A stretch of DNA of 64,000 nucleotides from Candidatus Zixiibacteriota bacterium (lineage in GTDB: Bacteria; Zixibacteria; MSB-5A5; GN15; FEB-12). Every line of letters begins with the position of its first letter. Positions within the stretch are counted from its first letter, which is position 1. Positions 1-8,952 of this stretch are shown one piece after another. Position numbers and translations under genes: made by a program. The notes under the pieces are model-generated. The model was given only the letters and a program-made list of their open reading frames with translations, was not told where the DNA came from and ran no database searches. The stretch is taken from positions 62,001 to 126,000 of the forward strand of contig JACZWU010000005.1 of the NCBI GenBank assembly GCA_022571985.1. The letters run 5' to 3'.

Positions 1-912
1 AGCTTTGCCTGTCCAGAAACTGGAAACTTCTGCATCAGTCAATTTACGTCCCAATTCTTTTTCTGCAGCTGCCGATGTTACCGGGATAAACATATCCCAG
101 GTAATACTCTGATTGAGTTCTACCTCCGGCATTAGCATTGTCAGTCCGTCGGCTACTTCATTGTTGCCCAGATATAGATTAATTCCCCCCTGTGATGAAA
201 TGAGAATGAGATCCCCGGTCACGGCATAATTGCGGATTGTCACCGGAGCAATCGCCAGAAACATTCCGGCCACCAGAACCAAAGCAGGGCGAATTGCTGT
301 CTTCCAGTCCAGCGATGGCTGCCTCTGTTTGAAAAACAACCACAGAGCCAAAAAAGGAACGACTATAATAATATTGGGTCGTGTTATCGCAGCCAGACCA
401 AATATCAGGCCGGTAACTGCCCAGCTCTTAAGAGAAGTGCTGTCTTGATTCTCTATCAGACGATACATCCCCCAGACTAAGAAAAACAAAAACAGGACCG
501 GAATCAGAAACATCGCTTCATAAAAAACGAGAGTACCGTAGAGAGCATAAGCAAACCCGGATATGACGCCCACAGTTTCATTGAACAAACTCCGGCCGAT
601 TTTGAAGATGAAAGCTGCAGTCAGACCACAGATTAAAATCTGCAGAAACTTTGCCCAGAATATCGAAGCATCGGTTATGAAATAAAGAAAAGCGAGTAAA
701 TAGGGATACAAAGGACCGCGAAAATATGAACCCTCACCCCAGAAAGATTTGTCCAGAATCTCCTGCGCCCAGAGCCAGTGCCATTTTTCGTCAACCATAG
801 GTACGCTGAACCCGGGCTGATTGCTCAGTTCGACCAGATAGAAGACACGCACGACAATGGCCGCCAATGCAATAATCAGCGGCCATCTGTTTTTTGCTAA
901 GAAATCTTTCAA
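1..912 (-). CDS. Glycosyltransferase family 39-like membrane protein (C-terminal part missing)
   Basis: The reading frame runs off the left edge, so about 304 N-terminal residues are seen. The pattern fits the PMT/ArnT-type GT39 superfamily, which moves sugars from polyprenyl-phosphate donors to lipids or proteins at the outer face of the inner membrane. Visible hallmarks are an N-terminal membrane helix ending in RVFY, a first periplasmic loop with the acidic VDEKWHW segment, the following FRGPLYPYLLAF helix, and several further hydrophobic helices. The start is unclear: no ATG is available, and TTG (912) or CTG (921) follow about 20 bases after the upstream OPT gene's stop, so the two are probably cotranscribed. 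The substrate cannot be told. Confidence 0.75.
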   Translation of the reverse strand, partial: MKDFLAKNRWPLIIALAAIVVRVFYLVELSNQPGFSVPMVDEKWHWLWAQEILDKSFWGEGSYFRGPLYPYLLAFLYFITDASIFWAKFLQILICGLTAAFIFKIGRSLFNETVGVISGFAYALYGTLVFYEAMFLIPVLFLFFLVWGMYRLIENQDSTSLKSWAVTGLIFGLAAITRPNIIIVVPFLALWLFFKQRQPSLDWKTAIRPALVLVAGMFLAIAPVTIRNYAVTGDLILISSQGGINLYLGNNEVADGLTMLMPEVELNQSITWDMFIPVTSAAAEKELGRKLTDAEVSSFWTGKA

Positions 913-932
913 TTTTTTCAGCGTTTTAATTA

Positions 933-2903
933 TTAGTTTTTGCCGAATCCTTTGGTTGCCATCCTGTACATGAACAGGGCCAGCCCGCCGAACAGAATCA
1001 GCGCCAGCCAGGGACCATAAGCACCGGTTACACTGTTCATCATACCTTCGTAGCTGTCATAGTAGCCGGCGTAACCTGCCCAGCTGCCAATCATAAACGC
1101 CACCAGCACGCCGATAAGCGCGTCACCAGCCACCATCCCCGACGCGAACAAGACGCCCTGCAGATTTTTTCGACCATACTCCTGATCAGATGAGACTTTT
1201 CTGACTATGTAAGCAATCAGGGCTCCAGCCATGATTGGTGTTGAGAGTGACAGCGGCAGATACAAACCAATGGCAAAAGGCAGCGATGAAACTCCCAGCA
1301 ACTCAACACCGACCGCAACCATAGCGCCGACCAGAATAGGTGTCCAGGGCAGGTTGGAGTTCATTACTCCCTGGACAATTGTCGCCATAATATTTGCCTG
1401 CGGAGCCAGCAGCGGTTCGCGGGAAGTCGCTCCCTCGACAAAACCAAAAGCATCATTTAAGAAATAAAGTGTAAAGCCCATGGCCATAGCCGGGAAGAGC
1501 AGTCCTATAAATTCTGTTAATTGCTGTTTTCTTGGCGTCGCACCCAGCAGATAGCCTGTTTTCAAATCCTGCGCTATGTCACCTGACATACAGACTGCTA
1601 TACAAACAACCGTGCCGACAGACATGGCGGTGACCATGCCGGCGGTGCCGTCGACTCCAAAATAAAGCAGAATCAGGCAGGTCACCAGCAGCGTTGCTAT
1701 GGTCATTCCGGAAACGGGTGACGACGACGAACCGACGATTCCCACAATTCTGGCGGCGACTACTACAAAGAAAAATCCAAAAATTACGGCCAGCAGAGTG
1801 CCCAGAATATTTAGATTAGTCCCCGGCAGCAGCCAAATGCCGATTGTTACCAGCGTAACTCCGAGCATAACCCATTTCATAGACAGGTCAAGGTCTGTTC
1901 GAGGCGTGCTTTCGGATTGAGCATTCTTGCCTAAAAGTTGACTGAAGCCTGTCTTAAGAGATGTAATGATGACAGGTGTAGATTTTAGCAGTGAGACAAA
2001 GCCGCCCAGAGAAACTGCTCCGACTCCAAGATACTTGATATAGGAGTTCCTAAGTTCTCCGGGGTCCATTTCACTTAATGGCATCGTCCCGGGCGCAATG
2101 ACTATGCCCGGTATCTGTTCACCAATAAATGCCAGCAGCGGTGCGATACCCAAGTAACCCAGCACGGCACCACTTAACATTAGTGCCGCAATTCTCGGTC
2201 CGATAATATAACCGACACCCAAAAGTGCAGGAGTAGCATCTATGCCAATTGTGCCGCCTTTAAGAAATTTTTGAAAGTCATAGTTAACAGATTCAGACCA
2301 GCCTTTAAGCAAGTTATAACCAATTTTGTAGAGAGCGCCCAATCCGATACCGGTGAAGACCAGCTTAGCCTTATTGCCGCCTTCGTCACCGGCTACAATT
2401 ATCTCGGCGCAGGCGGTGCCTTCGGGAAAGCGAAGGTTGCCGTGTTCTTTTTCAACCAGATATTTACGCAGCGGTATCATCAGCAGAATGCCCAGCGAAC
2501 CGCCCAGCATTGACAGCCAGAAAATCTGAGTCTTGGTTATTTCGTGAAAATATCCGGCTGCAGCCAGTTCCTGATTGGCCGACCAGATGAAAAATGCCGG
2601 TACTGTAAAAATAATTCCTGCCGCGAGTGACTCCCCGGCAGAACCCACAGTCTGGACGATATTGTTTTCTAAGATAGTAGCTTTGTTCATCATCAGTCTG
2701 AGAACAGCCATCGAAATTACAGCTGCCGGAATTGAAGATGATACGGTCATTCCAAATTTCAGCCCCATATAGGCATTGGCGACACCAAAAACTACTGAGA
2801 TTATGGCACCGAGAATGATAGCTCGCCAGGTAACCTCGGCCATAGTTGTATTGGCCGCAACTGCCGGCGTAAAAGTCTGCTTATTGGGTCCGTTATCTGC
2901 CAC
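933..2903 (-). CDS. OPT family oligopeptide transporter
   Basis: About 656 residues, nearly all in hydrophobic helices, typical of the OPT superfamily (proton-coupled uptake of oligopeptides or metal-siderophore complexes across the inner membrane). Family-like segments include WRAIILGAII and VFGVANAYMGLKFGMTVSSS near the N-terminus, RFPEGTACAE about one third in (the conserved PxGxxCA region of bacterial OPTs), and GDIAQDLKTGYLLGATPRKQQ past the middle. The frame is open to an ATG at 2972, but a GTG at 2903 sits 5 bases behind a strong AAGGAGG and removes 23 atypical residues, so I chose GTG. The GT39-like gene follows downstream. The transported peptide is not predictable. Confidence 0.9.
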   Translation of the reverse strand: MADNGPNKQTFTPAVAANTTMAEVTWRAIILGAIISVVFGVANAYMGLKFGMTVSSSIPAAVISMAVLRLMMNKATILENNIVQTVGSAGESLAAGIIFTVPAFFIWSANQELAAAGYFHEITKTQIFWLSMLGGSLGILLMIPLRKYLVEKEHGNLRFPEGTACAEIIVAGDEGGNKAKLVFTGIGLGALYKIGYNLLKGWSESVNYDFQKFLKGGTIGIDATPALLGVGYIIGPRIAALMLSGAVLGYLGIAPLLAFIGEQIPGIVIAPGTMPLSEMDPGELRNSYIKYLGVGAVSLGGFVSLLKSTPVIITSLKTGFSQLLGKNAQSESTPRTDLDLSMKWVMLGVTLVTIGIWLLPGTNLNILGTLLAVIFGFFFVVVAARIVGIVGSSSSPVSGMTIATLLVTCLILLYFGVDGTAGMVTAMSVGTVVCIAVCMSGDIAQDLKTGYLLGATPRKQQLTEFIGLLFPAMAMGFTLYFLNDAFGFVEGATSREPLLAPQANIMATIVQGVMNSNLPWTPILVGAMVAVGVELLGVSSLPFAIGLYLPLSLSTPIMAGALIAYIVRKVSSDQEYGRKNLQGVLFASGMVAGDALIGVLVAFMIGSWAGYAGYYDSYEGMMNSVTGAYGPWLALILFGGLALFMYRMATKGFGKN

Positions 2904-3412
2904 AATACCTCCTTGTCGGGTTGGGGGAAATCTGAAGTTGTGTAAACTTAGTCCAAAGCCGGTTTTAGTCAAGTAAATAGAAATTTGTGATAAAGGGCTT
3001 CCTGACCGCAGTAACTGCGCTAAATTGAGCTGATATTATGAATTCAGGCAGGCTTTTTGTTTGTATAACAGGCAGTAAAGTTAACGTAAATACTGTAATA
3101 TCAGACAGATACGGCCAAGCCCTAAAGAAAGCCGTAACTGCTGGACTTTGTTAGGTTTAGACAAACAGCTAAATATCGGCTGGAAACTTAATTTTGTAAA
3201 AAGGGTTGACAAGATTGAATAAAAATGCATATTTAGAGCAGGAATTCAGACCTAATCCGATTGCCAGATATACCGCTCACTCAAATAGTTGGTGAGGGCT
3301 TATTAAAAAAATAATCGTTTTTGCGGACAAATATAGGAAGTTACTGTTAATGCAAGGGAGTATGTGTTTACAGTTAACGAATTTTTAACCAGGCTCATTT
3401 AGGAGGTGACCC
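2904..3412. other. Divergent intergenic region with long leader of the T9SS-type gene
   Basis: This 509-base gap separates the OPT gene (minus) from the exported cohesin-like gene (plus). It holds the OPT ribosome site (AAGGAGG, minus, about 2909-2915) and a plausible plus-strand promoter at 3206-3235, giving a leader of about 170 bases before TTG 3413. I see no convincing small gene and no strong hairpin. Confidence 0.6.
3206..3235 (+). promoter_or_regulatory. Putative sigma-70 promoter for the T9SS-type gene
   Basis: A perfect TTGACA (3206-3211) is followed by an 18-base spacer and TATTTA (3230-3235). It is the best promoter match in the AT-rich gap before 3413. Not tested; a distant start would leave a long leader. 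Confidence 0.4.
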
Positions 3413-4240
3413 TTGATTAAACGCTTACTCGTTGTGACAGCAGTCATGGCTCTGTTGGTGGTGTCGTCCACTCTTTTTGCGGCTGAATCCCACAAGTTTG
3501 GGGTAGGTAAAGCCATAGCAAAAAGTGCAACCATTATTGTTGTACCGTTGGAAATTTCCAACCTGGACAATCTGGTGGCGCTGGACATTCCGCTATCATT
3601 TTCGGAAGGCGTGACTCTTAAGGAAGTTGATTTTACCGGTACTCGTATTGAGTATTTCGACTTCAAAATCTCGAACATAGACAATGAAAACAATACCGTT
3701 ATTATCGGTGCTCTGCCTCAGATGTCTTATGAGGCCAAGTCCGACCTGGCAGCAGGCAGCGGTGTTGTGGCTAATCTGATTTTCGAGATAGATGATCCTT
3801 CGATTACCGAAGTGACCATCGAAGCAATAGAGATGGCTGATCCATATCACAAACTGATGTTTGTGTATCATGATTACAATGCAGACGGCAGTATCGCCGG
3901 TATTCGTGCTGAGTACCCGGCCTTTGCTGATATCGTTGTAGACAGCGATCCTGTTGGTGCTAACCTTCCGACGGTTTTTGCTCTTGACCAGAACTACCCG
4001 AACCCGTTTAACCCGTCAACCGAAATTTCTTTCGCGTTGCCGAATGCGGGTCGTGTTTCACTTACTATCTACAATGTTTTGGGACAGGAAGTGGAAAGAC
4101 TGGTCGATGAGCACATGGAAGCAGGTAACCATACGGTAACCTGGGAAGCCAGCAATTATTCAAGTGGCGTCTATTTTTATCGTCTGATCGCGGACAATGA
4201 TAAGTTCGTCAAGACGAATAAAATGATGGTCTTGAAATAA
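3413..4240 (+). CDS. Exported cohesin-like protein with T9SS type A C-terminal sorting domain
   Basis: 275 residues. It starts at TTG 3413 behind GGAGG. Residues 1-24 form a Sec signal peptide (IKR, hydrophobic core, FAAE cleavage region). The middle, about 30-180, is a beta-rich domain with a cohesin-like pattern (VPLEISN, LVALDIPLSF, EGVTL, LIFEI). The last 90 residues are a FlgD-like/Por sorting domain: YPNPFNPST, YNVLGQEV, LVDE, SGVYFYRL, KMMVLK. In Bacteroidota and relatives this domain directs secretion by the type IX system and surface attachment. Cohesins bind dockerins, and two dockerin proteins lie about 18 kb away, so a surface scaffold is possible but only inferred. It is single-gene, with a terminator behind it. 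Confidence 0.85.
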   Translation: MIKRLLVVTAVMALLVVSSTLFAAESHKFGVGKAIAKSATIIVVPLEISNLDNLVALDIPLSFSEGVTLKEVDFTGTRIEYFDFKISNIDNENNTVIIGALPQMSYEAKSDLAAGSGVVANLIFEIDDPSITEVTIEAIEMADPYHKLMFVYHDYNADGSIAGIRAEYPAFADIVVDSDPVGANLPTVFALDQNYPNPFNPSTEISFALPNAGRVSLTIYNVLGQEVERLVDEHMEAGNHTVTWEASNYSSGVYFYRLIADNDKFVKTNKMMVLK

Positions 4241-4324
4241 GACAGAGTTACTTGATTGGTTAAAAATTAGCTTGTTAACTGAAGGAACAGGTATAGTCCT
4301 TTAGTGTTAATAAATACTGTTAAA

Positions 4325-4358
4325 AAAGCCCTTGCTTGATGGGTCACGCAAGGGCTTT
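4325..4358 (+). terminator. Rho-independent terminator after the T9SS-type gene
   Basis: A perfect 11-bp stem, AAAGCCCTTGC (4325-4335) with GCAAGGGCTTT (4348-4358), encloses a 12-base loop and is followed by ATTTTG. It lies 85 bases past the stop at 4240. The A-run before the stem lets it work weakly on the minus strand as well. Confidence 0.9.
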
Positions 4359-4786
4359 ATTTTGTCCGGTTATTTTTGTTTGTATTTGTTCGTCATTCTT
4401 GTCCGCCCGTGGCGGAAAAATCCAGCCGGTAATACGATAGCAGAATTCTTGTTATGTCTGTTCTTCTTGTCATTCACGTTCCCTTTGTCATTCCCGAGTG
4501 TCGTTGTCGGGAATCCATCTTCCATAATCGTTCATCCTTAGCAAACCTATAGCGAATTCATCCTGAGCCTGCACTTGTCCCGAGCGTAGCCGAGGGGTCG
4601 AAGGAGACTTTGCTACATTTTCGTGAGCTCGCACTTCGACAAGCTCAGTGTGACCTCACCAAGGTTAAGAGCCTTAATATAAACAAAGTACAAAGTAGAG
4701 TTGTCCTGACCCTGCTTCTGGGTTAAGTGGGTGGCCGCCTATGGCGCGTCCCCGTCTGTCCCTCGACTCAGCATAGTAAGAAAAAA
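4359..4786. repeat. Gene-free stretch with fragments of dispersed palindromic repeats
   Basis: This gap contains no credible gene. It holds several members of the window's dispersed repeat family: ATTCCCGA (4490-4497) paired with TCGGGAAT (4507-4514) inside a GTCATTCCCG-type unit, a TCCTGAGCCTGC...GTCGAAGGA unit around 4560-4608, a CACTTCGACAAGCTCAGTGTGA unit around 4631-4653, and a GTGGGTGGCCGCCTATGGCGCGTCC unit near 4727-4752. Related fragments recur at about 5.2, 5.4, 26.0, 36.9, 40.1, 41.9, 42.8, 43.7 and 55.1 kb. They resemble REP-like intergenic repeats common in environmental genomes. Confidence 0.75.
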
Positions 4787-5059
4787 TCACTCAGAAGTAG
4801 TCGGGTCAATAATCGTCTTTATTTCAGAAACGCTGTCGGCCGGGAATCCTGCTTTTTCGGCGTGTTCTTTTATCAGCACTTCACTCGGAGCAATATAAAC
4901 GCAGTAAATTTTGTCGCCGGTCACATAGCTATGCAGCCACTGGATGTCACTGCCAAGTTCCCTGAGCACGCTGCAGGACTTTAGCGCTGCGCCTTTTAAC
5001 TCCCCGGCAGAAAGATTTCCGACACCCGGCATATTTCGTTCGATTACAAATTTTGGCAT
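4787..5059 (-). CDS. DUF4242 family small protein
   Basis: 90 residues, cytoplasmic. The start chosen is ATG 5059 (MPKFVIER), preceded by AGGAGAG at proper spacing; the open frame extends to 5161 but the extra 34 residues look random. The alpha/beta ferredoxin-like pattern (MPKFVIERNMPG at the N-terminus, then a helix, IQWLHSYVTGDKIYCVYIAPS, and EHAEKAGFPADSV) is characteristic of DUF4242, a family related to a nickel-binding actinobacterial protein. No role can be assigned here. It stands alone between repeat-rich gaps. Confidence 0.8.
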   Translation of the reverse strand: MPKFVIERNMPGVGNLSAGELKGAALKSCSVLRELGSDIQWLHSYVTGDKIYCVYIAPSEVLIKEHAEKAGFPADSVSEIKTIIDPTTSE

Positions 5060-5171
5060 AGCAGCTCTCCTTTTTGACTTTGATGTTTTGAAACTGTTTC
5101 GATGAATAAACGCCGCGGGCCAATAATTGTCAACCAGGCTATGTGCTTTTAAGGTCGGCAATATCGCCCCT

Positions 5172-5430
5172 TTGTCATTCCAGCTTTAGTCCCGTGTAGT
5201 CACGGGGCGTAGGCGGGAATCCATCTTCAGCGGGTTATGATGAGTATTTTCCCGACTTTTGTCGGGATGTGACCCTGCACTTGGGCACCTGAACTGCAAG
5301 GGTCACAATCCCCCGCAATGCGGGAAATCAAGACCCTGCAGAACATAAATCCTGAGCGGACGTCTTCCTGAGCCTGCCTTGGTCCCGAGCCGGCCTCGGC
5401 GGAAGGGGTCGAAGGAGTCTAGGGATGACA
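5172..5430. repeat. Cluster of dispersed palindromic repeat fragments
   Basis: Two partial units of the same family as 4359-4786. One is a TTGTCATTCC...GGCGGGAATCCATC unit at about 5172-5226. The other is a TTCCTGAGCCTGCC...GGTCGAAGGAGTC unit at about 5364-5420. Between them is a shorter palindrome with CCCGACTTTTGTCGGGA near 5250. Open frames here on the minus strand only translate repeat sequence. Confidence 0.65.
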
Positions 5431-5610
5431 GACAGGCAGCTAATGCGCCGCAGGCTATCAAACTCTGCGCTTTTATGGCCGGCAATGTTACCGCAATGTG
5501 AGCTAAGTGGTTGTCTATCAACAACGCCAGTATCAAACAGAGTCTTGGCACACAATTTGATACTATAACATGCTTAGCGAGGAAGCCGGGAGGCCGAACC
5601 GAAAGTTGGC

Positions 5611-5718
5611 GTTTGTAAAGATGTTTTTTACAAGCTGGCGCTATCGCGCAGCTGTTTGCTGACTTAAGTGACGGAAATCACAGCAATTCATGGCGGTGAA
5701 ATTGCTGGGATTATTCCC
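5611..5718. other. Tight run of small hairpins (possible structured RNA or palindromic element)
   Basis: Four inverted repeats lie end to end: TTGTAAA (5613-5619) with TTTACAA (5627-5633); AGCT-g-GCGC (5633-5641) with GCGCAGCT (5646-5653); CAGCAATT (5681-5688) with AATTGCTG (5700-5707); GGGA (5707-5710) with TCCC (5715-5718). A fifth hairpin follows at 5736. No open frame explains them. They may form a structured transcript, or be a decayed palindromic element, upstream of the XRE module. Confidence 0.45.
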
Positions 5719-5735
5719 GGCATGGTGAGGAGAAA

Positions 5736-5765
5736 GAAAGGTCCTGATTTAGGTCGGGACCTTTC
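5736..5765. other. Strong hairpin GAAAGGTCC / GGACCTTTC
   Basis: A perfect 9-bp inverted repeat (5736-5744 and 5757-5765) with a 12-base loop. It lies between the hairpin run and the XRE promoter, with no T-run, so terminator activity would be weak. The AAAGGTCC arm recurs at 7051-7058 in the hairpin after the protease gene, so similar hairpins flank the XRE-ImmA pair. Confidence 0.5.
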
Positions 5766-5838
5766 ACTTTATAAAAGACTTTGAGTAGGGATTTAAATCG
5801 AGTAGGTCGAAACCCGCCTGCTTGGTGCGGTTTCGACA

Positions 5839-5880
5839 ATTCAGTCATTGCGAGGAGTGCCAGCGACGAAGCAATCTCAA
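5839..5880. repeat. Copy of the widespread CATTGCGAGGAG...GACGAAGCAATCTC repeat
   Basis: CATTGCGAGGAG followed by GCGACGAAGCAATCTCA is a well-known imperfect palindrome type scattered between genes in many bacteria. Here it lies just before the XRE promoter. It accounts for the apparent minus-strand open frame at 5711-5974. Confidence 0.7.
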
Positions 5881-5967
5881 ACAGGTACCCAAGTGAATAG
5901 AGGGCCACCCCTACTATTGGAGGGCATTCGCTACTTTCTATTGAAGCAAAATACTTCAAAAAACTGC

Positions 5968-5996
5968 TTGACATGATTTAATATTTTTGTTTTAAT
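5968..5996 (+). promoter_or_regulatory. Promoter of the XRE-ImmA module
   Basis: TTGACA (5968-5973), a 17-base spacer and TTTAAT (5991-5996) form a near-consensus sigma-70 promoter 41 bases before the chosen XRE start. The initiation site would fall in the inverted repeat at 6000-6024. Confidence 0.65.
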
Positions 5997-5999
5997 TTG

Positions 6000-6024
6000 G
6001 GGTCTTCCATAAATGGGAAGACCC
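6000..6024. promoter_or_regulatory. Likely operator: 9-bp inverted repeat over the transcription start
   Basis: GGGTCTTCC (6000-6008) and GGAAGACCC (6016-6024) are perfect inverse complements around a 7-base centre, directly after the -10 box. The position suits autorepression by the XRE protein encoded next; a leader hairpin is the alternative. The repeat contains the far-upstream ATG at 6013, one reason I do not use that start. Confidence 0.6.
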
Positions 6025-6036
6025 ATGAGGAATAGA

Positions 6037-6339
6037 ATGAACTATAAGCTTTTTGGAATCAGATTAAGAGAATTAAGAAACAATAGGCAAATCAGTATCA
6101 AGCAACTCGCTTCGCAACTGGGATATACTTACACCCATATTAGTAACGTCGAAATCGGATACAAGAAACCCTCACGAGATTTTGTGCAAAAGGCGGCAGA
6201 TTTTTTTAAGATAGACTCCGAAGGTCTATTATTACTATCAGCAGAAATACCTGAAGACATAATGAGAATTTTGCAGAGAAGCCCAACGGAAGCACCAAAG
6301 TACTTGAGAAAAAGATTTAAAGATAAAGATGAAAAATGA
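6037..6339 (+). CDS. XRE-family helix-turn-helix regulator
   Basis: 100 residues. The start is ATG 6037, behind TGAGGA; in-frame ATGs at 6013 and 6025 lie in or against the operator repeat. The HTH_XRE/Cro-CI domain covers about residues 6-62 (RLRELRNNRQISIKQLASQLG, helix, YTYTHISNVEIGYKKPS), followed by a short charged tail. Such proteins bind palindromic operators as dimers. The stop overlaps the ATG of the ImmA/IrrE protease by 4 bases (ATGA), a classic repressor-antirepressor arrangement in mobile elements and stress or defence loci, where the protease cuts the repressor. A strong promoter and inverted repeat lie immediately upstream. The host trigger is unknown. Confidence 0.85.
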   Translation: MNYKLFGIRLRELRNNRQISIKQLASQLGYTYTHISNVEIGYKKPSRDFVQKAADFFKIDSEGLLLLSAEIPEDIMRILQRSPTEAPKYLRKRFKDKDEK

Positions 6340-7046
6340 ATTTTATATCTGTTGAAAATATCGAAAGAATAGCATCCAGAGATTTTAGTGACTATTTGAA
6401 AAAAGTGGGCATAAAATCTCCCCAATTTCCGTTGGACCCAGAAGAGATTTTTCGAATCCTGTTTGGGTTAAACACAAGATATATTGACTTTGAAGAACAT
6501 AATATATCTTCAAAAAGTGAGGGGAAACTTTTGGGTGCACTTTACCCAGAAGGATTTGAGTTTTGTGGTGAAGATAAGCAGATATTAGTAAATGTTACAA
6601 ATAAGGACTTAGAAGACCAAGAACTATTCGCATATATTGAACAAGCTCAGCGTTTCACCGTGTTTCACGAGGGTGGACATGAAGCTCTTCACGTAAGACC
6701 TTCAAGACAACAGACATCCCTTTTCCCGGCAGACAAGAAGCTATACAATAGGGGTCAACCTTTCTTGTGTAGGAGTGATCAAATTTTGGGCGAGACTTTT
6801 GACCCTTTGGAATTTCAGGCGAATCGCTATGCAGCAGCGTTGATGATGCCACGTGATGAAATATTTAGAATTGTTGAACAATCAAATATTGTAGATTTAC
6901 ACAAATTTGGTGCCAAATTTCGCAAATATTTTGGAGTTTCACAAAAAGCGATGGAAGTCAGACTTAACAATCTCAAATATGTAGTCTTAAATGGGAAATA
7001 TAGTGAACTTTTTTATAGAAAGGAGCCTTATGGAAATAGAAAATAA
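6336..7046 (+). CDS. ImmA/IrrE family zinc metallo-endopeptidase
   Basis: 236 residues, formerly DUF955 (M78). The zinc motif HEGGH is at residues 111-115, in FTVFHEGGHEALH, and the third ligand is probably Glu159 in the EFQANRYAAALMMP segment that marks the family. A C-terminal FGVSQKAMEVRL stretch matches the helix-turn-helix-like region often found in ImmA proteins. Family members cleave partner XRE repressors to derepress a mobile element or stress response (ICEBs1 ImmA, Deinococcus IrrE). Translation is coupled to the XRE gene by a 4-base overlap. The sequence is AT-rich relative to flanking genes, suggesting transfer. A hairpin follows the stop. Confidence 0.88.
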   Translation: MNFISVENIERIASRDFSDYLKKVGIKSPQFPLDPEEIFRILFGLNTRYIDFEEHNISSKSEGKLLGALYPEGFEFCGEDKQILVNVTNKDLEDQELFAYIEQAQRFTVFHEGGHEALHVRPSRQQTSLFPADKKLYNRGQPFLCRSDQILGETFDPLEFQANRYAAALMMPRDEIFRIVEQSNIVDLHKFGAKFRKYFGVSQKAMEVRLNNLKYVVLNGKYSELFYRKEPYGNRK

Positions 7047-7053
7047 ATAGAAA

Positions 7054-7081
7054 GGTCCATATCGATGCAACGATATGGACC
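7054..7081. other. Hairpin after the protease gene (GGTCCATATCG / CGATATGGACC)
   Basis: A perfect 11-bp inverted repeat with a 6-base loop lies 8 bases past the ImmA stop. There is no T-run on the plus strand; on the minus strand it is followed by TTTCTATTT. It may attenuate readthrough, stabilise the upstream mRNA, or serve as an operator for the two genes that follow. An ATG at 7075 lies in its right arm. Confidence 0.6.
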
Positions 7082-7200
7082 CCATTGAATCCGTAGAGGA
7101 CCCAATTTGTAAAATCCAATCTAAGATAGTATCTTTCATTGACTTGTCAATAACAAATTTGGCTTCTCCTAACATTAACATTGAACTAGTGAGGTTCGAA

Positions 7201-7515
7201 ATGACGAATCAATACAATTATGGTCGCAAGAAAGAACATCTTGTTGCCAACAGATTGAGAAACAAAGGTGCCAGTGTGAAGCTGTCACCAGGAAGCAGAG
7301 GAGCTGCCGACTTGGTCGCACGCTTTGATACTAAGACCTGGCTTGTGCAAGTAAAGTCCACACGAAGTGGTACGCCTGCATCACCTACTGCAGCGAATTT
7401 AGGTAACTTAAAACGGTCTGCGACTAATTCGTCCGCTACACCGGTAGTGGCAGAAGTTTCAGGCAAAAAAGTAAAATATTTCTCTGCCAGAGATGGCCGA
7501 GAATTAAAGCCATAA
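7201..7515 (+). CDS. Small PD-(D/E)XK nuclease-like protein
   Basis: 104 residues. The start is ATG 7201, with GAGG 6 bases upstream; the frame is open from 7075 but that start is inside a hairpin and the extra residues lack fold-like pattern. The core matches the Hjc/VRR-like restriction-endonuclease fold: helix with Glu12 (RKKEHLVANRLRNKGA), then SPGSRGAADLVA with Asp37, and the beta strand WLVQVKST with Gln50 and Lys52 (the D...QxK form of the motif). Such domains cut or bind DNA (junction resolvases, Mrr-type endonucleases). No methylase partner is present. It is followed 14 bases later by the GIY-YIG-like gene. Enzymatic activity is inferred from motif only. Confidence 0.7.
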   Translation: MTNQYNYGRKKEHLVANRLRNKGASVKLSPGSRGAADLVARFDTKTWLVQVKSTRSGTPASPTAANLGNLKRSATNSSATPVVAEVSGKKVKYFSARDGRELKP

Positions 7516-7529
7516 GAAAGGAAATAATC

Positions 7530-7832
7530 ATGGCAGATTCTGAGTATCAAATAAACACAGAAATAAAACAGTATATTGATAACAACGGTGGTAGCTATTC
7601 ATCTTGGTATGTAGGTATTACTGGTGATCCAAAAGTTCGATTATTCGAGCAACATGATGTTCACGAAAATGGTGACAACTGGATATGGAAAGAAGCTGGA
7701 TCAAATCAAGAAGCAAGGAACATTGAAAGTTACTTTGTAAATGATCTTGGTACTTCTGGTGATACCGGCGGTGGAGATGATTCTTCAGTCTTTGTATATG
7801 CTTACAAGATAAACAGTCATACAGAACCGTAG
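7530..7832 (+). CDS. GIY-YIG-like small protein of unknown role
   Basis: 100 residues, ATG preceded by AAGGAAA. It contains a short GIY-YIG-like core: WYVGITGDPKVRLFEQH (residues 26-42) with Arg37 and His42 in the places expected of the family's Arg/His helix, and EARNIESYF with Glu66 as candidate metal ligand. The first GIY strand is not obvious, so the domain is either degenerate or a divergent member. The C-terminal half has a TSGDTGGGDDSS loop and VYAYKI strand, a pattern I recognise from small orphan proteins in many bacteria but cannot name. It is probably cotranscribed with the PD-(D/E)XK gene. Confidence 0.6.
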   Translation: MADSEYQINTEIKQYIDNNGGSYSSWYVGITGDPKVRLFEQHDVHENGDNWIWKEAGSNQEARNIESYFVNDLGTSGDTGGGDDSSVFVYAYKINSHTEP

Positions 7833-7868
7833 ATAGCCCATTATTATCGTATTTCTACTTTCAAACAT

Positions 7869-7897
7869 TGCAAGAGGAACAATTCGATCCTCTTGCA
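7869..7897. terminator. Terminator-like hairpin between convergent genes
   Basis: TGCAAGAGGA (7869-7878) and TCCTCTTGCA (7888-7897) form a perfect 10-bp stem with a 9-base loop, in the 79-base gap between the GIY-YIG-like gene and the convergent PP-loop gene. There is no long T-run, so termination strength is uncertain. Confidence 0.55.
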
Positions 7898-7911
7898 GTG
7901 CCATTAATTTC

Positions 7912-8952
7912 CTATCGTACCGGCTGCAACGATTCGCTCAACTCATGCGCACCCGGTGAAAAGGCGAAAGTCCTGTCAACGTCCGGGCCGGTGACAGAAA
8001 CTGTCACTGAATCGTCATCACGCGCCGAACTATAACGGACTGTCAGCGAAGTGGCTTTGCTGATATTTTCGTCTGAGGCGTTGCCAATCAAAAGAGTAAC
8101 CGGGGAGCCACAGTCTAAGGCTTCAATACGGAAGTGATGGTCGCGTTTGTTAAAATCGAGAAGTTTGTTCTCTCTTTCATTACGCCCGATAATAAGTTTG
8201 GTCTGGTCATCTATTCTAAAATGCCGCCCCAGCCTGAGCAGATTTAAGTCGTCAAAACTCAGCTTGCCGGTATGTTCCAGTAAATCCCGCAGGCGGTTGG
8301 AATAGCCGCGATCGGTCAATAGGCAGCCCGATGCCGGCGAGGGGTAGTTATCAAGCCCAAACTCTTTGGCCATTTCCAGCTGGCGGTGGCGCCCACGTCC
8401 GGAAATTCCTTCGAGCATTTCGCGGTCAACTAAGCCGTTTAGTTCGGCTTCGGTAGGCGGCAGAAGTTTTGCCGAAAGGGGCCTTAGTAATTTTCCTTTG
8501 AGGCCGGCTTTTTTAATAGTCAGGTTAAGTTTGTTTTTGACCTGCGACATCGGCCGCTGTCCCATAACTTCGCCGGTGATAATAAAATCAGCGTTGGTCA
8601 GTTCCAAAAACTCTTTGGCCTCTGTCAGCATCAGAATGCGGCAATCGACACAGACATTCATATTTTTGCCGCGGCCATATTGGGGGTTTTCTACAATATC
8701 CACAAACTTCTGCCCCAAATGCATTAGCTTGACATTAAAGCCAAACTTCTCAGCCGCCGGATAAGGATTGCCACCGCAGGAAGACCTGTCGCCCAGATCA
8801 CAGCCGAAATGAGTCATAAAAGTCAGAGCGGTGACTTCTATATCCTGCTTCAACATCAGCAGGATTGCCAGGGCAGAGTCCAGTCCGCCCGAAAAGAGGG
8901 CGATACAATGTGGTTTCTTTGGCGGTTTCTTTTGTTTGTTATTATCACTCAT
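7912..8952 (-). CDS. ThiI/MnmA-like PP-loop tRNA-thiolation-type enzyme with NFACT-R-like C-terminus
   Basis: 346 residues, cytoplasmic. Residues 16-30 carry the PP-loop of N-type ATP pyrophosphatases (ALFSGGLDSALA), which adenylates the target base. A CVDCR motif near residue 100 and GEVMGQRPMSQ near 128 match the THUMP-less ThiI-like group that transfers sulfur to tRNA. From about residue 240 the segment KLIIGRNERENKLL, then CGSPVTLLIG and ISKATSLTVRYSSAR, resembles the NFACT-R (DUF814) RNA-binding domain. That fusion is known in the family and would replace THUMP as the RNA-binding part. The substrate base (s4U8 or s2U) is not decided by sequence. ATG 8952 is the natural start. It stands alone. 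Confidence 0.8.
   Translation of the reverse strand: MSDNNKQKKPPKKPHCIALFSGGLDSALAILLMLKQDIEVTALTFMTHFGCDLGDRSSCGGNPYPAAEKFGFNVKLMHLGQKFVDIVENPQYGRGKNMNVCVDCRILMLTEAKEFLELTNADFIITGEVMGQRPMSQVKNKLNLTIKKAGLKGKLLRPLSAKLLPPTEAELNGLVDREMLEGISGRGRHRQLEMAKEFGLDNYPSPASGCLLTDRGYSNRLRDLLEHTGKLSFDDLNLLRLGRHFRIDDQTKLIIGRNERENKLLDFNKRDHHFRIEALDCGSPVTLLIGNASDENISKATSLTVRYSSARDDDSVTVSVTGPDVDRTFAFSPGAHELSESLQPVR

Follow-up and report, generated by a model that had tools for sequence, protein, structure and literature searches.

A four-gene XRE–ImmA cassette with two small nuclease-like proteins: a candidate switch-controlled defence locus in Zixibacteria

CapH and CapP together control immune operons (CBASS, Bub, BREX, Pycsar and DISARM) upon DNA damage: CapP is activated by single-stranded DNA (ssDNA) and cuts the repressor CapH, and neighbouring operons are derepressed (PMC13373217). 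CapW or CapH–CapP is found in 219 of 544 Bub operons, and BREX, Pycsar, CBASS and DISARM are likewise reported with CapW and CapH–CapP (PMC13373217). The same logic operates in ICEBs1 (ImmR–ImmA) and in Deinococcus (IrrE/PprI–DdrO), where an M78 protease inactivates an XRE repressor after DNA damage (PMC2701414, PMC10904395); the Deinococcus protease PprI is ssDNA-activated and cleaves DdrO (PMC10904395). ImmR–ImmA pairs control ICEs more generally, and COG2856–Xre pairs occur with PIN and RelE toxins, for which a three-component system has been predicted (Makarova et al. 2009, PMC2701414). CapH–CapP has so far been known as a regulator of large immune operons with sensors elsewhere, and the literature we searched holds no description of such a switch paired with small stand-alone nucleases.

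Here we describe a cassette that places an XRE–ImmA pair ahead of two small nuclease-like genes. It lies near one end of the window, by which we mean the whole 64,000-nucleotide stretch of DNA that was analysed.

A switch-like gene pair at a variable chromosomal site

The cassette consists of four small open reading frames, numbered here genes 1–4, which run head to tail from 6013 to 7832. A sequence-only reading had described them as a row of AT-rich genes encoding a repressor, its likely protease (HEGGH) and two nuclease-like proteins, with a near-consensus promoter, a 9-bp inverted repeat, hairpins after genes 2 and 4, and no integrase or phage gene. This layout is borne out except in base composition: genes 1, 2 and 4 are AT-rich (GC 0.36–0.37), whereas gene 3, at 0.457, is close to the window as a whole (0.452), which hints at a separate origin for gene 3.

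Gene 1 (6013–6339, + strand) encodes a CapH-like repressor of the XRE family. It is recognized by Pfam HTH_3 (5.2e-10) and by PADLOC capH (4.7e-7), with the generic helix-turn-helix model HTH_VI scoring better than capH (1.5e-12), and its start is likelier at ATG 6037, preceded by AGGA, than at 6013. Gene 2 (6336–7046, + strand) overlaps gene 1 by 4 bp and encodes a CapP-like ImmA/IrrE (M78) metallopeptidase with the HEGGH motif; Pfam Peptidase_M78 matches at 8.1e-10 and 39 bits (cut-off 22), and capP is the best PADLOC match (1.5e-12), covering model positions 64–152 of 242, the catalytic half. Judged by family membership, the pair would work like CapH–CapP. Matches of the window ImmA to phage and Rhizobium plasmid proteins were generic and were set aside, and the viral contigs searched contain no confirmed relative of gene 2. 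One Rhizobium plasmid locus (L012, 1–6916) carries PD-(D/E)XK, ThiF, XRE, ImmA and exonuclease-domain genes, and is possibly another XRE–ImmA-controlled defence locus.

Upstream of gene 1, a promoter-like pair (5968–5996, + strand) combines TTGACA at 5968, a 17-nt spacing and TTTAAT as the −10 element (5991–5996). It agrees with the consensus at 11 of 12 positions; the promoter scan did not list it because position 2 of the −10 element is not A. Just downstream lies a perfect inverted repeat with 9-bp arms, GGGTCTTCC (6000–6008) and GGAAGACCC (6016–6024), and a 7-nt spacer, which is a candidate operator or a 5′ hairpin (6000–6024). The divergent XRE/GIY intergenic region of two related loci described below (L005 and L007) contains ATGTAACA-N7-TGTTACAT, with the same layout as the window repeat in different letters. 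Both hairpins are strong, with no shuffled sequence as good: a palindrome whose arms are 11 bp long, immediately following the protease gene (7054–7081, z −5.28) and terminator-like on the − strand only, and a second hairpin after the last gene (7866–7899, z −5.70). As the + strand has no T-run at either, we rejected plain, standard terminators as their identity. The hairpin after gene 2 sits in the 155-bp gap between genes 2 and 3, and coupled transcription of these two genes is therefore not certain.

Alignment with two genomes of the same genus shows that the cassette is an insert at approximately 5911–7910. Synteny with the window extends to 5910 and resumes at 7911 in one genome (G001), and extends to 5860 and resumes at 7916 in the other (G002), so that the insert edges fall ~80–100 bases beyond the outer ends of the four genes. 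Between the conserved flanks, these genomes hold a YCF48-like gene and a PLAT-domain gene, respectively. Since both share the flanks but hold unrelated genes between them, the cassette is lineage-specific cargo of a variable chromosomal site. The site is small and lies upstream of a ThiI-like/NFACT-R gene (window 5911–7910 compared with L027 and L028), with a single, differing cargo in each of the three same-genus genomes. The insert and its immediate surroundings in the window show no integrase, relaxase or phage gene.

Two small nuclease-like proteins

Gene 3 (7201–7515, + strand) encodes a small PD-(D/E)XK-like protein related to Hjc and YraN. Its start was placed at ATG 7201, with GTGAGG upstream; an alternative start at ATG 7075 was set aside because it overlaps the hairpin and the ribosome site is better at 7201. 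The E...D...(E/Q)xK motif is present as E12, D37 and Q50-V-K52, the residues that the sequence-only reading had singled out. Profile matches are sub-threshold for Pfam Hjc (7e-4, 19.9 bits, cut-off 21.1) and for PDDEXK_5 (0.011), and the NCBIfam YraN match (9e-4) reflects a local similarity. The single-sequence structure model of gene 3 (pLDDT 45) is too poor for the fold to be read.

Gene 4 (7530–7832, + strand) begins 14 bp after gene 3 and encodes a GIY-YIG-like protein. GIY-YIG is its only Pfam match (0.049, 14.4 bits against a cut-off of 22.6), and a relative that is 47% identical (L005) exceeds the same cut-off, with 25.6 bits (1.6e-5). The catalytic Tyr, Arg, His/Tyr and Glu correspond to Y27, R37, H42 and E66, and Y27, G29, R37, H42 and E66 are kept in all copies that contain R37. 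A weak GIY match elsewhere (L003, G048) fell on glycine-rich sequence in an unrelated protein and was discarded.

The AlphaFold2 model of gene 4 is fair (pLDDT 79) and shows, in order, a helix, the strand WYVGIT, a helix with the Arg and His, a strand, a helix with E66 and the strand VFVYAY. The usual first strand (GIY) is absent ahead of YVG; from this order and from conservation, we guess that the conserved C-terminal Y-x-Y strand (VYAY) may replace it. Foldseek places a viral GIY-YIG protein first among the BFVD matches (probability 0.97, E 0.023) and returns nothing convincing from the PDB. Structure prediction thus gives moderate support to the GIY-YIG assignment, from the viral match and without a counterpart in the PDB.

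Relatives and their neighbourhoods

A pattern search of 84,980 genomes, which finds close relatives only, returned four relatives of gene 4, and 132 genomes of the window's phylum returned one more. In three related loci (L005–L007, of which L007 is labelled Gastranaerophilales), the GIY-YIG-like gene is divergent from an XRE–ImmA pair; the Gastranaerophilales pair matches capP at 4.8e-28 and capH at 6.8e-11. A tyrosine recombinase adjoins the GIY-YIG-like gene in each, followed by hsdS in L007 and in L006 (contig edge). Across L005 and L006, a segment of ~3 kb (4525–7508) comprising ImmA, XRE, GIY-YIG-like and recombinase genes is 99% identical while the left flank differs, and this segment has therefore been recently mobile.

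The fourth linked locus (L013, from genome G102) belongs to another family of the window's class. Here a CapH–CapP-like XRE–ImmA pair is followed by Multi_ubiq, ThiF-DUF6791 and DUF6527 genes, a Bub-type operon, then by the GIY-YIG-like gene and, on the opposite strand, hsdS, hsdM and hsdR. The locus (433–8728) forms a compact defence island, made up of CapH–CapP-like, Bub-type, GIY-YIG-like and type I restriction–modification (R-M) genes. The ImmA protein of the window is only distantly related to those of L005 and L013 (21–26%), and the XRE–ImmA pairs are thus not one inherited module. A further full-motif GIY-YIG-like gene (L004) has no XRE–ImmA pair within ~5 kb.

M78 genes number 0–2 per genome among the genomes checked and, because ImmA genes are this rare, the chance of any one gene lying within 5 kb of ImmA is ~0.7%. 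Outside the window, two of three independent settings of the full-motif gene are linked, for which the chance is ~1e-4, a rough estimate from few loci.

The GIY-YIG-like family extends to a class of another phylum, where 10 of 14 genomes carry a relative (L025, L029–L037). R37 is lost in all ten copies and E66 in four, and the neighbours, named from sequence, resemble housekeeping genes, among them rpsF-ssb-rpsR and pgl. In L030 and L034, the R37-less gene stands beside rpsF-ssb-rpsR-type genes; in two genomes (G194 and G398), ImmA genes lie on contigs other than that of the R37-less gene. This class-wide protein is possibly a non-catalytic derivative. Since the R37-less clade is unlinked and in housekeeping surroundings, the XRE–ImmA link goes with catalytic-type residues, and no tie to ImmA holds across the whole GIY-YIG-like family.

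Searches of 386 genomes and of plasmids, phages and viral contigs brought up no intact relative of gene 3. A single decayed relative (L039, genome G298), split over two frames and lacking its middle, lies immediately upstream of an XRE–ImmA fusion and downstream of a DruE-like helicase, in a Druantia-like locus. From this one copy, a link of the gene 3 family to XRE–ImmA is suggestive. One locus (L041, 164–8912) carries in a row a DruE-like helicase, the decayed gene 3 relative, an RmrA-like XRE–ImmA fusion and a PIN-like gene. YraN-type matches of gene 3 (L038 and L040) belong to housekeeping rnhB-yraN loci and were discarded. No tblastn match to genes 3 and 4 or to two GIY-YIG-like relatives turned up among 72,556 plasmids and 50,697 phage records, and neither gene 3 nor gene 4 has a confirmed relative in viral contigs; we therefore rejected a phage or plasmid origin of the two genes.

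The sequence-only reading had tied both small proteins to the repressor–protease switch. For gene 4, the neighbourhood comparison favours this tie, though not without exception: co-occurrence with ImmA holds in L005–L007 and L013 and fails in L004 and the ten R37-less copies, and known defence genes do adjoin it, namely the type I R-M genes hsdS in L007 and hsdS, hsdM and hsdR in L013. For gene 3, the tie comes down to the one decayed copy. The pairing of genes 3 and 4 with each other is not found anywhere outside the window.

Explanations and comparison with known systems

The explanation that we favour, with moderate confidence, is a compact, horizontally acquired stress or defence cassette in which a CapH–CapP-type switch controls two small nuclease-like proteins. 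The XRE protein would repress its own promoter via the candidate operator (6000–6024) and would also hold genes 3 and 4 down, directly or by read-through. DNA damage or phage replication would yield ssDNA and activate the ImmA/CapP-like protease, which would cut the repressor; both small proteins would then be made and would attack invading DNA, or all DNA. We infer this switching, with genes 3–4 as its targets, DNA cutting as its effect and defence as its outcome. A defence function is plausible from the neighbouring genes, and the GIY-YIG-like protein, which stands beside XRE–ImmA and restriction genes in unrelated bacteria, is for that reason probably a defence effector under switch control that has yet to be described. 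The system had been proposed as undescribed, which applies to the combination in the literature searched and not to the CapH–CapP switch itself.

A bolder version, which we put forward tentatively as a rather long shot, is a minimal immune system made of a CapH–CapP switch and small stand-alone nucleases, without a separate sensor or signalling enzyme. The protease would be the infection sensor, and the effector would be a rearranged GIY-YIG domain, shared across phyla, whose C terminus gives the first strand. A locus that carries nothing beyond one or two nucleases of 100 residues would show that the damage sensing of the switch can be enough on its own, and these proteins would form a small effector family that is easy to test. 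Because the GIY-YIG-like gene is linked across phyla to XRE–ImmA, Bub and restriction genes, this idea is open to direct testing.

The same wiring would also serve a three-component toxin–antitoxin-like module, in which a protease-controlled XRE repressor restrains nucleases that are toxic to the host, slowing or killing it, or that stabilize the locus. COG2856–Xre with PIN and RelE toxins is a precedent (PMC2701414), and the XRE–ImmA fusion of L041 is near a PIN-like gene. We consider this unlikely, as the observed links are to restriction and Bub genes, not to the plasmids and phages in which genes 3 and 4 lack relatives, and GIY-YIG and PD-(D/E)XK folds suggest a DNA rather than an mRNA target. 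An equally doubtful account is that of chance neighbours: an XRE–ImmA pair gathered at a variable site with one or two small genes that arrived independently and have no functional link to it. It would accommodate the unrelated cargo in G001 and G002, the different GC content of gene 3, the absence of genes 3 and 4 together elsewhere and the GIY-YIG-like genes that are unlinked to XRE–ImmA, but it sits poorly with a full-motif gene that adjoins XRE–ImmA in two further unrelated settings and with a decayed gene 3 relative upstream of an XRE–ImmA fusion.

ImmR–ImmA control of ICEs (PMC2701414) brings to mind a mobile-element remnant, from an ICE or prophage, with an ImmR–ImmA-type control region and genes 3–4 as processing nucleases. 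The tyrosine recombinase beside the GIY-YIG-like gene in the Gastranaerophilales copies would fit, yet that recombinase adjoins hsdS. Specificity-switching recombinases are common beside hsdS. Given also an insert free of integrase, relaxase and phage genes, this reading seems very improbable.

Among known systems, ICEBs1 ImmR–ImmA and Deinococcus IrrE/PprI–DdrO share with the window the combination of XRE repressor and M78 protease; the window differs from the former in having no ICE genes and from the latter in that the locus is not a DNA-repair regulon. As in COG2856–Xre toxin–antitoxin loci, protease, repressor and small nuclease genes are adjacent, but the effectors are not PIN or RelE, neither of which genes 3 and 4 match in profile searches. 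Gene 4 resembles GIY-YIG nucleases (UvrC N-domain, I-TevI and CMoRE) in its YVG, an R ten residues later, the H and the downstream E, and in the weak to moderate profile matches of the protein and its relative; it differs in standing alone at ~100 amino acids and in having no clear GIY strand before YVG, and CMoRE has a sensing domain that gene 4 does not (PMC12923530). Gene 3 is like Hjc and YraN in its E, D and QxK, its sub-threshold Hjc match and its local YraN similarity, but it has Q where the ExK motif has an acidic residue, is ~104 amino acids long and lies outside the rnhB-yraN setting. With CapH–CapP, the window shares overlapping XRE and ImmA-type genes ahead of further genes, capP and capH matches, and an inverted repeat over the promoter. 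The window ImmA is, however, a distant capP match confined to the catalytic half, with cleavage putative, and what the pair would control is not a known immune operon but two small nuclease-like genes; the window locus contains no known immune operon, and Bub and type I R-M genes accompany the related GIY-YIG-like loci.
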